From assembly GCA_021299185.1 (NCBI GenBank), contig JAJTHZ010000067.1, forward strand, positions 62,001 to 126,000: DNA of 64,000 bases. Reading direction: 5' to 3'. Numbering within the stretch: position 1 is the first letter of the stretch; the number at the start of each line of letters is the position of its first letter. The notes under the pieces are model-generated. The model saw only the letters and a list, made by a program, of their open reading frames with translations. It was not told the DNA's origin and did no database searches. This DNA is from Lysobacteraceae bacterium. Its GTDB lineage: Bacteria > Pseudomonadota > Gammaproteobacteria > Xanthomonadales > Ahniellaceae. This document shows, piece after piece, positions 52,172-61,098 of this stretch. The position numbers and the translations under genes are program-made.

Positions 52172-52260
52172 GCCCGGGTGGCGAAATCGGTAGCCGCAGG
52201 GGACTTAAAATCCTCCGGCCCGCAAGGGCCATGCCGGTTCGAGTCCGGCCCCGGGCACCA
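52172..52260 (+). tRNA. tRNA-Leu (UAA), integration target of the 8.8-kb element
   Basis: An 89-nt class II tRNA with acceptor GCCCGGG/CCCGGGC, discriminator A and CCA. The anticodon loop CTTAAAA has anticodon TAA. A long variable arm (TCCGGCCCGCAAGGGCCA region) is present. Its 3' part from 52203 is repeated at 61041-61098, so the tRNA gene serves as the attachment site and remains intact after insertion. Confidence 0.97.
52203..52260 (+). other. attL (within tRNA-Leu 3' end)
   Basis: Left copy of the 58-bp attachment repeat. It spans the anticodon loop to the CCA of tRNA-Leu. It differs from the right copy only at 52209 (A here, G at 61047). The 51 nt from 52210 to 52260 are identical to 61048-61098, so strand exchange took place to the right of position 52209. 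Confidence 0.92.
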
Positions 52261-52348: not shown

Positions 52349-53464
52349 ATGGCGACGATCACGCGGCGAGTAGGGCGCACGGGGCGCGTCACCTGGCAGG
52401 CGAAGGTTCGCCCGCTCGGCGAGCTGCCGCGCTCGCGCACGTTCGCCCGCAAAGCCGACGCCGACGCCTGGGCGAAGGCGATCGAAACCGACCTCGCGCG
52501 CGGGCTCGTAGTGCCCACGACCGCCGACCGGCGCCGCACGGTGTCCGACCTGATCGACGAATACCTGCGCGACGCGCTGCCGCGCACGAGCACCGCGAGG
52601 GCATACCGGCGGCAATTGGAATGGTGGCGCGCGCAGGTCGGCGCGCTGGCAATCGAGAAACTCACGCCGGCCGCAATCGCCGACGCGCGCGCGAAGCTGA
52701 TGCGGCCCGACGCCGATGGAACCAAGCGCAAGTCGGCGACCGTGAACCGCTACCTCGCCGCGCTCAGCGCCGCCTGCAAATGGGGATGGAAGGAACGCCG
52801 CTGGCTGCCGCGGAATCCCGTCCTAGACATCGCCAAGGGCCGCGAGTCGCCCGGCGTGGTCCGGTTCCTCACCGAGCCGGAGCGCGCCGCGCTGATGACC
52901 GCTGCGCGCGCCAGCGACGATCCCAACATCTACACCGCGCTGATCCTCGCACTCGCCACCGGCGCGCGTTACGCGAACGTCCGCGGTCTCACGGTCGACG
53001 ACGTGGCGATCGACCGCACGGCGCTGCGATTCACGACGACCAAGAACGGGCAGGGGCGATGGGTGCCGCTGATTCCTGCCGCGCGTGCGCAACTGGCGGC
53101 GCACCTGGAGCGACACCCGACCGGCGAGGGCTGGCTATTCCCGGGCTGGCGCAACGATTCGCCCGCAGACCTGGACAAGGCCTGGCGCAAGGTCCGCACC
53201 GCAGCCGCGAAGGTGGAGCCCACGCTCGCGACCTTCCGCTGGCACGACCTGCGCCACACGACCGCTACCTACCTCCTCGAGGCCGGAGCGAGCACGATCG
53301 AGATTGCCGCGGCACTCGGGCACAAGACGCTGGCAATGGCGCAGCGCTACGCGCACCAATCGCCCGCCTTTGCGCGCGAGACGTTCAACCGCCTGGCCGA
53401 CCGGCTAGGCGACCTACAAACCGACGCCGGCGGCACCGGCGAAGCGGCGCCGACCCGGACGTGA
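52349..53464 (+). CDS. int: Tyrosine recombinase (phage-type integrase)
   Basis: A 371-residue site-specific recombinase that would integrate and excise the element at tRNA-Leu. An N-terminal arm-binding beta region (MATITRRVGRTGRVTWQAKV) precedes a SAM-like core-binding domain (TVSDLIDEYLRD... to about 165). The catalytic domain has Arg I in ATGARYANVRGL, Lys in TTKNGQGRWVPL, the H-x-x-R box WHDLRHTTATYLLEAG, and the His/Tyr end LGHKTLAMAQRYAH. The catalytic set is complete. The acidic residue after Arg I that is usual (Glu/Asp) is Asn here. The gene sits directly next to attL and reads into the element. Confidence 0.93.
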   Translation: MATITRRVGRTGRVTWQAKVRPLGELPRSRTFARKADADAWAKAIETDLARGLVVPTTADRRRTVSDLIDEYLRDALPRTSTARAYRRQLEWWRAQVGALAIEKLTPAAIADARAKLMRPDADGTKRKSATVNRYLAALSAACKWGWKERRWLPRNPVLDIAKGRESPGVVRFLTEPERAALMTAARASDDPNIYTALILALATGARYANVRGLTVDDVAIDRTALRFTTTKNGQGRWVPLIPAARAQLAAHLERHPTGEGWLFPGWRNDSPADLDKAWRKVRTAAAKVEPTLATFRWHDLRHTTATYLLEAGASTIEIAAALGHKTLAMAQRYAHQSPAFARETFNRLADRLGDLQTDAGGTGEAAPTRT

Positions 53465-54551: not shown

Positions 54552-54767
54552 ATGCAACAGCGAACCTTGAAGGACGTGGCGGGTTTTGCCGCCACGGCCG
54601 GCTTTACCGAGGCGCAGCTCCGGTGGTGGATCCACAACGCCGAAGGGAACGGCCTCGCGCGCGCTGGCGCCATCGTGCGAATCCAGCGCCGCGTTTACAT
54701 CGACGCCGATCGGTTCTGGCATTGGGTCGATTCCGGCGCGGCGGCCGGTCGCCGGAGCGCCGCATGA
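54552..54767 (+). CDS. Small HTH DNA-binding protein (excisionase/AlpA-like)
   Basis: A 71-residue protein from the ATG at 54552, which has GGGAG about 7 nt upstream. It reads TLKDVAGFAATAGFTEAQLR, then WWIHNAEGNGLARAGAIVRI and RRVYIDADRFWHWVD. This has the shape of a MerR-type winged helix: the recognition helix near TEAQLRWWIHN, a wing with a basic hairpin, then a terminal helix. Such proteins serve as excisionase (AlpA/Xis) or replication activators in P4-like islands. Which role applies here cannot be read. Confidence 0.65.
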   Translation: MQQRTLKDVAGFAATAGFTEAQLRWWIHNAEGNGLARAGAIVRIQRRVYIDADRFWHWVDSGAAAGRRSAA

Positions 54768-55009
54768 CGACCGCGAGCAGCTTGCCGGCGCTGCCGGCAA
54801 CCGCTGCCGCCCTGGCGGACCACGCGCGGCAGGCTGCGGCGCTTGCCGAGCAATTCCGCAACCAGCCGTCGCGCGAGTCGCTCGATGCGTTTCTCGCAAC
54901 CAGCCGTGGCGCAACAATGGCAGCGCTGCGCGCTGCGCGGATGCTGCGCGGCGATCCGCTGCCACCGACGCCCGGCGAGCCGCCCGCGCGCAGCCGGCGG
55001 GCCGCCTGA
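54764..55009 (+). CDS. Element protein of unknown function (81 aa)
   Basis: An 81-residue Ala-rich helical protein. Its ATG overlaps the previous stop (ATGA) and its TGA overlaps the next ATG (TGATG), so it is embedded in a tightly coupled replication operon. The N-terminal 55 residues form one or two amphipathic helices; the tail (PLPPTPGEPPARSRR) is Pro/Arg-rich and probably disordered. No family recognised. Confidence 0.65.
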   Translation: MTTASSLPALPATAAALADHARQAAALAEQFRNQPSRESLDAFLATSRGATMAALRAARMLRGDPLPPTPGEPPARSRRAA

Positions 55010-55491
55010 TGGCGCGACCGATCGACCTCGTGTTGTCGCGGCTGCCGCGCGCCAAGAAGGCCGGCGCGGGCTGGCGAGCGCCGTGCCCGAACTGCGGGCC
55101 GGACTCGAAGTCGGAAAAGCTCGCCGTCACCGAGGGCGACGATGGACGCGTGCTGCTTCACTGCTTTGCCGGCTGCGCGCCGGCTGCCGTCCTGGCTGCG
55201 GTCGGGTTGGCGGTCGCGGACCTGTTCGACCGGCCGACAGCCGCGGCCGACGCGAGCCCCGCCGAGCGGCGACTGCGCCGCGTCGAGCTGGAGCTCGCCG
55301 ACGTGCGCGCTGCTGCCGCGGCGCTCGACCTCGAAGCGGTGGTGCTCGAAGTCGCGGCCGAGCAAATCGCCGACGGCCGTCCGCTCGCCGGACCGGATCG
55401 CGAGCGCCTGACGCTCGCACATCGCCGCATCGGCGACGTGCTGCTGCGCCTGCGCGCCGCGCACGCGCGCCGGCCGAGGGCTGCCGCATGA
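55009..55491 (+). CDS. CHC2-like zinc-finger (primase zinc-ribbon) protein
   Basis: A 160-residue protein. Residues 23-55 form a primase-type zinc ribbon: CPNCG, then KSEKLAVTEGDDGRVLLHCF with AGC. This gives the C-x2-C ... H-C-x3-C pattern of DnaG/P4-alpha zinc-binding domains. The remaining 100 residues are Ala/Leu/Glu-rich and helical, without the Toprim catalytic core. It overlaps the SF3 helicase start (ATGA). In P4 alpha, primase and helicase are one chain; here the zinc finger is on a separate protein and no catalytic primase domain is visible. It may load or regulate the helicase, or help a host primase. Confidence 0.75.
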   Translation: MARPIDLVLSRLPRAKKAGAGWRAPCPNCGPDSKSEKLAVTEGDDGRVLLHCFAGCAPAAVLAAVGLAVADLFDRPTAAADASPAERRLRRVELELADVRAAAAALDLEAVVLEVAAEQIADGRPLAGPDRERLTLAHRRIGDVLLRLRAAHARRPRAAA

Positions 55492-56873
55492 CCGACGGAC
55501 CTGCCCGCGTGGTGTCATTGGCCGAGCGCGCCGAGCAACGGCAGGCGGAGGGCCTCGATGTGAAGCGGCCGCTCGATGCGGCGCGGCTGTTGCGCGAGCG
55601 GGCGAAGGTTGGCGGCTGGCACGGCATCGCCAACGTGGCGGGTGGGTTCTACGAATGGGACGGCGAGTGCTGGCGCCCGCTGCCGCAGCCCCGGCTAGAT
55701 GCGCGCATCTACGCAATGCTTGAACAGGCGGCCGCGCCGGCGCATCGTCGATCCGTCGGCGACGTAGTGCATGCGCTCGCGGCGCTGTCGTTCGTTCCTG
55801 GCGCGCCGCCGTTCTGGATGCCGGGCGCCGAAGGCCCGGACCCGCTTGACCTGGTGCCGCTGCGGAACGGGCTCTACCACCCCGCAGCGAAGAAGCTCTA
55901 TCCCCACACGCCGGCGCTGTTCAACGTCAGCGCGGCGCCGGTTTCGTTCGACCCCGACGCGACATGCCCGCGGTGGGAGCGGTTCGTGGGCGAGGCGATC
56001 CCGGACGCGGACAGCCGGCGCGCGCTGCAACAGTTCATGGGCGTGCTGGTGTGCAGCCGAACGACGAAGTATCAGCGCGCGCTCACGATGATCGGACCGC
56101 CGCGAAGCGGAAAGGGCGTGATTCAGCGCACGATCACCGCGCTTGTTGGCCGCGATGCCGTGGCCGCGCCGACGTTCGATGAACTCGGCGGCCGATTCGG
56201 CCTGAGCGGGCTGATCGGCAAAACGGTTGCCACCATCACCGACGCTCGCATTGTGCCCGGCGATCAAGGGCGCGGCGCGCTGCAGAAGTTCCTCGCACTC
56301 ACTGGCGAGGATCACGTGCAGGTCGAGATGAAGTACGGCCCGCCGCAGACCATGCGGCTGCCCGTGCGCTTGTTGATCGCAAGCAATGATGTGCCCGTGT
56401 TCCGTGACGCCAGCTCGGCGGCGACGGCGCGGCTGCTGCTGATCCGCAGTGGCGCGTCGCACGTCGGCACCGAGTCGCTAGACCTCGAGGATGAACTCGC
56501 GGCGGAATTGCCTGGCATCTTCAACTGGTGTGCCGCGGGGCTCGCGGACCTTGAGGGATGCGGGCGGTTCGTTCAGCCCGCCGACGGGCAGGCGCTGCTC
56601 GATGAGCTGCGCGATGCCAGCAGCCCGATCGGCGCATTCGTGCGCGAGCGCTGCGAGCTGCGGCCCGATGAGTGGATCGCCAAGGCTTCGATCTTCAACG
56701 CTTGGTGCGACTGGTGCCGCGAGGAAGGGCGCAACCCTGGAGAGCTTGCAGCGTTCGCCCGCGCGCTTCACGCGGCAGCGCCCGGCATTTCAGCGACCCG
56801 TGGCCGCGATGAAAACGGCAAGCGCTACCAGCGCTTCAACGGCATCCGCCTTGCGCTGGAGCCCGGCCCGTGA
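55488..56873 (+). CDS. SF3 helicase, phage/plasmid primase P4 family (DUF5906-type)
   Basis: A 461-residue replication protein. The N-terminal region (residues about 60-160) resembles the D5/P4 N-domain (LVPLRNGLYHPAAKKLYPHT with FNVSAAPVSFDPDATCPRW). The SF3 helicase core has Walker A IGPPRSGKGVIQRT at about residue 204, a Walker-B-like acidic strand near KTVATITDARI, and motif C LLIASNDVPVFRDAS with the sensor Asn. A C-terminal winged-helix region ends the protein. It probably opens the origin and unwinds DNA. An iteron array lies directly after its stop, as expected for an origin-binding helicase such as P4 alpha. Confidence 0.88.
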   Translation: MTDGPARVVSLAERAEQRQAEGLDVKRPLDAARLLRERAKVGGWHGIANVAGGFYEWDGECWRPLPQPRLDARIYAMLEQAAAPAHRRSVGDVVHALAALSFVPGAPPFWMPGAEGPDPLDLVPLRNGLYHPAAKKLYPHTPALFNVSAAPVSFDPDATCPRWERFVGEAIPDADSRRALQQFMGVLVCSRTTKYQRALTMIGPPRSGKGVIQRTITALVGRDAVAAPTFDELGGRFGLSGLIGKTVATITDARIVPGDQGRGALQKFLALTGEDHVQVEMKYGPPQTMRLPVRLLIASNDVPVFRDASSAATARLLLIRSGASHVGTESLDLEDELAAELPGIFNWCAAGLADLEGCGRFVQPADGQALLDELRDASSPIGAFVRERCELRPDEWIAKASIFNAWCDWCREEGRNPGELAAFARALHAAAPGISATRGRDENGKRYQRFNGIRLALEPGP

Positions 56874-56884
56874 CCGCCGGCCGC

Positions 56885-57142
56885 GGTCAGGGGTCGGGTC
56901 AGGGCGTGGTCAGGGGGACGCCGGCCAGAACCGCCCGTTTTCGCCTTCACGGTCAGGGTGGTCAGGGTGGTCAGGGTGGATCGGCACTACTTCCTGCGTA
57001 CCCCATGCGCCGCTTTCCGGTGGGCTCTGCTGTTTCTTTCAAGGTTTGCCATCGGACCCCTGACCACCCTGACCAGCCCGCGCCGCACAAGGGTTTGCGG
57101 GGTGTCTCGACCCCTGACCTACCCCTGACCCGACCCCTGACC
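56885..57142. other. Candidate replication origin: dyad-symmetric GGTCAGGG iterons
   Basis: Eleven copies of GGTCAGGG lie in a 387-nt gap. Six are direct, starting at 56885, 56897, 56908, 56951, 56960 and 56969. Five are inverted (CCCTGACC), starting at 57058, 57067, 57112, 57123 and 57135. The spacing is mirror-symmetric: 12, 11, then 43, 9, 9 on the left; 9, 45, 11, 12 on the right. The centre near 57013 holds a less GC-rich patch (TGTTTCTTTCAAGG). The position next to the SF3 helicase gene and the iteron symmetry fit an origin. The gap has no gene that I can support. Confidence 0.75.
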
Positions 57143-57260: not shown

Positions 57261-58004
57261 ATGACACACACCCCTGAAAAACCCGACTTCGAGCCCGAGG
57301 ACGATGCGCTGTCAACCGATCGGCCGGACGGGCTGTTTCCCACCGCGCTTGACGACGTGCGACTCACGCAGGCGCAGCTCGGCGACCTGCTCGGCGTGAG
57401 CCGGCAAGCCGTCGGCAAGCAGGTGAAGCGCGGCGCCTTGCGCGTCGATCCCGATGGATTGATGCCAGCGCGTCGCGCCCTGGCTGACTGGCGCCGGAAC
57501 GTCGATCCGAGCCGCACGCGCGCACGCTTCAACGCCCGCCGCCCTAGCGCAACCGACCCGGCGCTGATCCAGCGCCTTGAGGCGATCGAGCGCCGGCTCG
57601 CCGAGGACTTGGGCGAGATGCTCGGCGACGATGGCGCGGCGCCTGGCAGCCTCGCCGCCGCGCGGGCCGACCTGGTGCGGGTGCAGCTCGAACGGGCGCG
57701 GTTCCTCGCGGAGCGCGAGCGGCGCGAATGGATTCGCGTCGCCGAGGTCGATGAAGCCCTGGCGCACTTCGCCGCCATCATGCGCGGCGCCATCATGGAT
57801 CTCCCGGGGCGCATCGCCTACGCGCTGAGCCTCGAAGGCGATGCCGCGCAGCTCGCGCACAACCTGGTGCACGAAACGACCCACGCCTGGCAGTGGGAGC
57901 TCGCCCGCGCTCTGGCGCGCCTGAACCCGAACGGCGAGCCGATCCCAGGCGATCCCCTGCACGCCTCGCCGCCGAACGGGAGCGGGGAGGGCGGCGCCGA
58001 ATGA
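57261..58004 (+). CDS. Terminase small subunit candidate (Nu1-like HTH protein)
   Basis: A 247-residue protein. Residues about 33-58 form a winged-helix DNA-binding motif (VRLTQAQLGDLLGVSRQAVG then KQVKRGALRVD) like Nu1-type small terminases and DUF1441 proteins. Residues about 95-180 are a charged coiled-coil region (LEAIERRLAEDLGEM..., VRVQLERARFLAERERREWI), which would give oligomerisation. GAGG precedes the ATG at 57261. The position directly ahead of the capsid region supports a packaging role, such as recognising the element's own DNA. A plain regulatory HTH protein is the alternative. No large terminase gene follows. Confidence 0.6.
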   Translation: MTHTPEKPDFEPEDDALSTDRPDGLFPTALDDVRLTQAQLGDLLGVSRQAVGKQVKRGALRVDPDGLMPARRALADWRRNVDPSRTRARFNARRPSATDPALIQRLEAIERRLAEDLGEMLGDDGAAPGSLAAARADLVRVQLERARFLAERERREWIRVAEVDEALAHFAAIMRGAIMDLPGRIAYALSLEGDAAQLAHNLVHETTHAWQWELARALARLNPNGEPIPGDPLHASPPNGSGEGGAE

Positions 58005-58930: not shown

Positions 58931-60055
58931 ATGAGCCACGCGCTCGAAATGCACTACGAACGAAAAGTACGCGAGCTGGCCGAAGTCGAGCGCGCGCTCG
59001 GCGCACGCGAAAAGGATCGGATCTCGCTCGGCAACGCGCTTGATGCCCTGCGCCATGGGAAGCCCGACCTGGCGTCGCGTGAGCGCGACTACTCCGAGTC
59101 GCTGCAATATGCACACAATCTTCCGCCGCTCGGCGCGCACTCGATGTACTTTTCGTGGCGCGGGATCGCCGCGTGCCTGGGCGATGGCATCCTGCCCCGC
59201 GGCCGCCGTGACCTCGGCACCACGCCCACGTCTGCCGGTGGCGCGCTCGTCACCACGCAGTTGCACGACGAAATCGCGGACGCGCTTCGGCCGTTTTCGG
59301 CGGCCTACCGACTGGGCGCAACTTCGGTGCCGCTGACCGGCGGGCAGGTGGGCGTGCCGCGAATCAACACCACTACCACGGGGGCGTGGCTCGGCAGCGA
59401 AACGACACCCGCACCCGAGAGCCAGCCCGTGCTCGGACAGATTGCGTTGTCGCCGAAAACCGCTGCGACCTACGTCGAATCGTCCCGGCAATTGCGCATC
59501 CAGAGCGGCCAAGCCGGCGAGCGCATGATCGCACTGGATTTGATGCGTGCGGTTGGCTCGCTCGTGGATGTGGCGGTGTTCGCTGGCTCCGGCGCGTCCG
59601 GTCAACCGTTGGGACTGGCCAACACCGCGGGCGTGACCGCGATTTCCGGCGGCACGCTGAATCGCGGGGGGTTGCTCGAACTTCAGCGCCGCGTGGCCGC
59701 TGCGAACGGGATCACCAACGCGGCGACCATCGGCTACGCGACCACGCCGCAGGTTGCCGAAATACTGGCCAACCGCGCTGTTGTCGCCAGTTCGGACGTG
59801 AGCGCTTGGCAAGGCAACCTCGCCGAGGGCACCGCAGCCGGTGCGCTGGCTGTCACCAGCACCGGCGTGCCGGCGGGCGTGGTTGCATTCGGCGATTGGA
59901 GCCAGTGCCTAGTCGCATCCTGGGGCGTTTTGCGAATCGAAGTGAATCCGACCGCGAATTTCCCGGCCGGGGTCGTCGGCTATCGCGCGTTTCTGGATGC
60001 CGATGTCGGCTTCCGGCAGACCGGCAGTTTTTGCCTCGCGACGGCGACGACGTAA
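58931..60055 (+). CDS. HK97-fold phage major capsid protein
   Basis: A 374-residue capsid protein. Residues about 1-90 are charged and helical, the delta/scaffold region of HK97-type capsids. The fold starts near LGTTPTSAGGALVTTQLHDE. The P-domain and E-loop region follow (AAYRLGATSVPLTGGQVGVP with TGAWLGSETTPAPESQPVLG), then LSPKTAATYVESSRQLRIQS and the SLVDVAVFAGSGASGQPLGL segment diagnostic of the family. The end GYRAFLDADVGFRQTGSFCL is the usual C-terminal strand. AAAGGAAA precedes the ATG. No protease gene is nearby, so maturation would need a helper enzyme or not occur. Confidence 0.88.
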   Translation: MSHALEMHYERKVRELAEVERALGAREKDRISLGNALDALRHGKPDLASRERDYSESLQYAHNLPPLGAHSMYFSWRGIAACLGDGILPRGRRDLGTTPTSAGGALVTTQLHDEIADALRPFSAAYRLGATSVPLTGGQVGVPRINTTTTGAWLGSETTPAPESQPVLGQIALSPKTAATYVESSRQLRIQSGQAGERMIALDLMRAVGSLVDVAVFAGSGASGQPLGLANTAGVTAISGGTLNRGGLLELQRRVAAANGITNAATIGYATTPQVAEILANRAVVASSDVSAWQGNLAEGTAAGALAVTSTGVPAGVVAFGDWSQCLVASWGVLRIEVNPTANFPAGVVGYRAFLDADVGFRQTGSFCLATATT

Positions 60056-61040: not shown

Positions 61041-61098
61041 ACTTAAGATCCTCCGGCCCGCAAGGGCCATGCCGGTTCGAGTCCGGCCCCGGGCACCA
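61041..61098 (+). other. attR (tRNA-Leu 3' fragment copy)
   Basis: Right copy of the attachment repeat. It lacks the 5' half of the tRNA and so is not a gene. It carries G at 61047 where the intact tRNA has A at position 37. That fits the left part of attR being element-derived (attP) and the right part being the displaced original tRNA 3' end. Confidence 0.92.

Follow-up and report, generated by a model that had tools for sequence, protein, structure and literature searches.

In phage-inducible chromosomal islands (PICIs), the origin lies 3′ of rep and has an AT-rich region with an iteron set on either side; in EcCICFT073, plasmid replication needs both rep and ori (PMC6092414). The Rep protein of SaPIs recognizes an origin downstream of its own gene through its C-terminal domain (PMC7581432), and the archaeal plasmid pRN1 is likewise reported to need sequence downstream of its replication gene (PMC4234260). 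The inverted iteron layout of PICI origins has been published as occurring in no other known bacterial replicon. Here, we describe an iteron array at positions 56885-57142 of the window (the whole 64-kb stretch of DNA that was analyzed), which, judged from its sequence, is very probably the helicase-recognized origin from which a PICI-like phage satellite of 8.8 kb is replicated.

The island unit was 8,838 bp long (8.84 kb), intact-looking, and bounded by 58-bp direct repeats at tRNA-Leu. All assigned ORFs lay on the plus strand, reading rightward. The features of the island were as follows.

52203-52260, plus strand: left attachment repeat, the 3′ end of tRNA-Leu(taa) (tRNA at 52172-52260); 58-bp direct repeat (98%)
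52349-53464, plus strand: tyrosine integrase (PF00589; phrog_1, E 5e-65)
54552-54767, plus strand: small possible excisionase/AlpA-like protein (weak; phrog_9668, E 0.03)
55009-55491, plus strand: ORF matching the N-terminal (zinc-finger-like) part of DNA primase phrog_6088 (E 3e-10, profile positions 7-87)
55488-56873, plus strand: P4-type SF3 helicase/initiator, 461 amino acids (TIGR01613, 143 bits; D5_N; DUF5906; phrog_6088)
57261-58004, plus strand: terminase small subunit-like protein (TerS-like) with an N-terminal HTH (phrog_57, E 1e-16)
58931-60055, plus strand: HK97-type major capsid protein (PF05065, E 1e-24; TIGR01554, E 2e-23)
61041-61098, plus strand: right attachment repeat, 58-bp direct repeat

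Small ORFs, one of them the weak excisionase match and no more than a weak candidate for the AlpA-type activator of PICIs, lay between the integrase gene and the ORF with the primase part; two ORFs without assigned function separated the TerS and capsid genes, and short ones followed the capsid gene, which was the sole capsid-family match in the genome assembly. Among the scanned island ORFs, there were no portal, TerL, or tail matches and no relatives of sid, delta, or psu (PHROGs), of which distant versions could escape such a scan. Queries with TerS and the capsid protein against viral contigs, and with TerS against phage records, returned no relatives, so that these collections yielded no sister satellite sharing the TerS-capsid pair. 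No other helicase match at E 1e-40 or better was present among 369 genomes of the class. The primase N-terminal domain (55009-55491) and the helicase (55488-56873) were encoded by separate, overlapping ORFs; in many relatives, they are fused. The island carried capsid and TerS genes without a portal or large terminase, and capsid homologues in other PICIs have been suggested to redirect helper capsids.

The array fills the gap between the helicase gene and the terminase-small-subunit gene. The original prediction, made from the sequence, had placed 11 copies of GGTCAGGG here, six direct and five inverted, beside a P4-family helicase; exact matches were located for all 11, and the helicase scored 143 bits against TIGR01613 (cut-off, 109). 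Copies started at 56885, 56897, 56908, 56951, 56960, and 56969 on the plus strand and at 57058, 57067, 57112, 57123, and 57135 on the minus strand, reproducing each of the predicted spacings (12, 11, 43, 9, and 9 in the direct set; 9, 45, 11, and 12 in the inverted set). The array is laid out as follows.

56885-56915, plus strand: outer left iteron set, 3 × GGTCAGGG, pitch 12/11 bp
56951-56976, plus strand: inner left iteron set, 3 × GGTCAGGG(T), pitch 9 bp as in relatives
56977-57057, no strand: central gap, 81 bp, proposed melting region, mirror center about 57013
57058-57074, minus strand: inner right iteron set, two inverted copies, pitch 9 bp
57112-57142, minus strand: outer right iteron set, three inverted copies, pitch 11/12 bp

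In 200 dinucleotide shuffles of the 550 bp after the helicase stop, the commonest 8-mer reached a mean of 2.1 copies, compared with 11 in the real sequence (P ≤ 0.005). Elsewhere in the 64-kb window, GGTCAGGG occurred exactly only twice (52075 and 63166), both times outside the island, and a search of the island found neither a further exact copy nor a second cluster. The spacing had been called almost palindromic around a center near 57013; when the right-hand set was reflected onto the left, the total misfit was indeed within 4 bp (best center, 57013.5), a mirror equaled by 21 of 20,000 random right-hand placements (P about 0.001). The mirror is only near-perfect, with an inner left triplet (56951/56960/56969) facing an inner right doublet and with centers of the inner and outer sets that differ by roughly 1 bp. 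The inner inverted arms (56956-56976 and 57058-57078) were 95% complementary, and the outer ones (56885-56916 and 57111-57142) were 91% complementary. The central gap is AT-enriched, modestly in absolute terms (58% GC versus 70% for the island); its least stable 60-mer ranked within the bottom 2-3% of the island for stability, and about six further spots there equaled or exceeded it in weakness.

P4-type helicase loci were drawn from the window, IMG/VR, phage records, and whole genomes (a sample of 60 usable loci, partly related), and each was scored for its best ungapped inverted arms (gap, 40 to 140 bp) in 360 bp at the gene end and in four control stretches. Arms scoring at least 12 lay at or just 3′ of the helicase stop in 28 of the 60 loci; among the controls, the counts were 0/60 for upstream sequence, 1/60 and 0/60 for the two stretches within the gene, and 2/59 for the stretch farther 3′. 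In the other 32 loci, no arms of that strength followed the helicase gene. The window scored 18 with its 81-bp gap. Arm sequences of the 28 positive loci were all different, their gaps were mostly 60-70 bp long, and gap A+T was above locus A+T in 26. A 9-bp pitch was common to the arms (lag-9 self-match of 0.54 versus 0.29 in gene controls, with other lags flat).

The closest relative of the helicase (38-39% identical) was found on a 12-kb contig, L009, which also encodes a portal (phrog_12) and, as recognized by eye, MCP- and TerL-like ORFs. It had its own GGCACGCGGTGG-type inverted arms in the same place, with an 83-bp gap; L032, a relative of L009 (58% to L009), had no strong arms by the survey test. 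Exact GGTCAGGG was absent from every relative examined, and function therefore rests on the layout. Absence of the motif beside homologous helicases had been named in advance as evidence against the original prediction: the exact motif is missing there, but the layout is kept with a changed motif, which is how an initiator and its site would be predicted to behave. An origin with mirrored iteron sets is not unusual for its class, the two-set layout having already been published; the concentric double mirror, with a pitch of 9 bp inside and 11-12 bp outside, is a local elaboration. Nested or adjacent inverted iteron sets were also seen downstream of the helicase in L049 (11 copies) and L015 (8148-8410; nine copies), and since these arrays are similarly rich, rich arrays are not unique to the window. 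On a Sumerlaeota contig (L007, 8311-8457), CACGGAC repeats, direct then inverted, lay far from a short helicase match.

Complete phages also carried such arms. They were found just after the primase gene in Acidithiobacillus phage AcaML1 (GGTCTGACGG; score, 17) and Bacillus phage phi105 (TGTTACTTT; score, 16), and Mycobacterium phage Hurricane had weaker arms (score of 13 versus a null maximum of 12). The layout is therefore not confined to satellites, and its published restriction to PICIs looks too narrow. Phages 9NA, Dryad, Tbat2_2, TG1, and Wrath had no arms by the survey test; the layout is thus common, not universal.

We propose that the iterons are read by a winged-helix-like domain at the C terminus of the helicase (residues about 380-461). 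In the AF2 model, residues 380-461 formed a helix-strand-helix-helix-strand-strand domain (pLDDT of about 79-93, last residues excepted), a predicted fold consistent with a winged helix; the top solved-structure match of the model was the SaPI5 primase-helicase 7OLA (Z 24.2). Across loci, arm similarity correlated with C-terminal-domain identity (Mantel r of 0.31; P = 0.0005; n = 29), a signal that is partly shared ancestry, and the correlation was smaller for the ATPase core (partial r of 0.04, versus 0.17 for the C-terminal domain). Neither the Mantel nor the shuffle values are fully freed of ancestry effects. Loci L028 and L023 were 83% alike in the core and 51% alike at the C terminus, and their iterons differed; L028/L024 and L023/L050, each similar in core and C terminus, had iterons common to the pair.

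The TerS-like product of the gene directly downstream has an N-terminal HTH, and cosB of lambda comprises three TerS-binding R sites (PMC6092414); the array could instead be a cosB/pac-like packaging recognition site bound by that product. We consider this unlikely. The layout adjoins many helicases followed within two ORFs by RuvC-like resolvases (four loci), SSB, or other proteins, and terminase-small-subunit families appear there in just 3-4 or so of the 28 loci, a low count that makes a tie between array and TerS less likely. Arm sequence varies with the C-terminal domain of the helicase, and EcCICFT073 has such an origin without encoding TerS (PMC6092414). Similarly improbable is a crr-like accessory element, bound by the helicase for copy control or for stimulation while replication starts elsewhere, as in P4. 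The crr of P4 does adjoin the 3′ end of alpha, contains type-1 repeats in inverted orientation, and passes the survey test (score, 12; gap, 45), but a second P4 cluster lies at ori, whereas the island has only the one, and PICIs use the site 3′ of rep as the origin itself (PMC6092414). Although the array is intergenic and upstream of terS, we give very little credence to an operator or other transcription-control element of the terS-capsid operon, bound by some regulator, because 11 sites over 258 bp, a weak core, and a family-wide tie to the helicase do not fit, and a sigma-70 scan of the region found no promoter-like site (weak evidence; promoter and terminator scans of the array region returned nothing useful).

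Recognition by the helicase as a replication origin is the reading that we prefer. The proposal of a helicase-bound origin stands as very probable, given the layout, the C-terminal link, and the likeness to EcCICFT073 and crr; P4 as its model does not, because one site 3′ of rep, two iteron sets, and an AT-rich core bring the array closer to PICIs and SaPIs, and the repeats of P4 are split between ori and crr. In the mechanism that we envisage, the helicase encoded upstream would read the 8-bp iterons through its C-terminal domain, and copies bound at 9-bp pitch on either side of the core would nucleate rings in opposite orientations. The weaker 81-bp core would melt between the rings, and from there each ring would move outwards and unwind its own side; primers would come from the split primase module, the host, or a helper. 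The outer triplets at 11-12-bp pitch might, at a guess, increase affinity or accommodate additional subunits. It is plausible by analogy that two opposed hexamers fire the origin bidirectionally, with the fork direction and ring number that this implies.

More tentatively, and with the balance of our judgment somewhat against it, D5/P4-type primase-helicases may have a general origin class in the double iteron set that lies 3′ of their gene, mirrored and with a 9-bp pitch; complete phages as well as satellites, from several bacterial phyla, would share it, and the motif would co-evolve with the C-terminal domain. The second concentric 11-12-bp mirror would here make a two-shell site that fixes two opposed hexamers. 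A probable origin has been placed by sequence alone in a satellite without experimental history, and inverted 9-bp-pitch arms just past the helicase stop can be found without knowing the motif. The many initiator-iteron pairs of differing specificity offer material on repeat choice by winged helices and on two-ring SF3 loading.

Among known systems, P4 shares with the island the helicase family (TIGR01613, 143 bits) and, in the crr that follows alpha on its 3′ side, type-1 8-bp repeats of either orientation. It differs in having two distant sites (ori lies several kilobases from crr) where the island has a single cluster, and neither the separate ori/crr clusters nor the sid/delta/psu genes of P4-like satellites were found in the island. 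The SCCmec protein Cch2, also a D5/primase_Cterm helicase, uses its C-terminal domain to bind iterons that immediately follow its gene; it differs in that these are only three short AAGTG iterons (PMC7581432). SaPIs have an origin of short iterons downstream of rep, bound by the Rep C-terminal domain, apparently as two hexamers (PMC7581432), and SaPI5 7OLA is the structure closest to the island helicase model; however, sequence identity is under 20%, the primase part is a separate ORF in the island, and the island genome is GC rich (70%). A full head/packaging set of its own, including portal and TerL, as in cf-PICIs, is lacking in the island, although relative L009 encodes a portal.

EcCICFT073 has the gene order integrase, small genes, primase, origin, SSB, PerC, capsid, and decoration protein, and its origin scored 12 in the survey test (gap, 47). 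As in the island, the site lies directly 3′ of the primase/helicase gene, with opposed iteron sets around an AT-richer core (PMC6092414); the innermost pair has a 9-bp pitch, many extra copies are present, and integrase, rep, ori, and the capsid gene run rightward. It differs in its GGTAGACA-type motif (GGTCAGGG in the island), in extra sets that are mostly side by side and not nested concentrically, in a central gap of 47 bp (81 bp in the island), and in TerS, which the island encodes and EcCICFT073 does not. With an integrase (52349-53464) and its own attachment site (58-bp repeats 8,838 bp apart), an origin that by sequence layout has two iteron sets 3′ of primase/rep, one-directional rightward genes, and few structural genes (TerS and MCP only), the island matches Gram-negative PICIs in predicted gene order and origin position.
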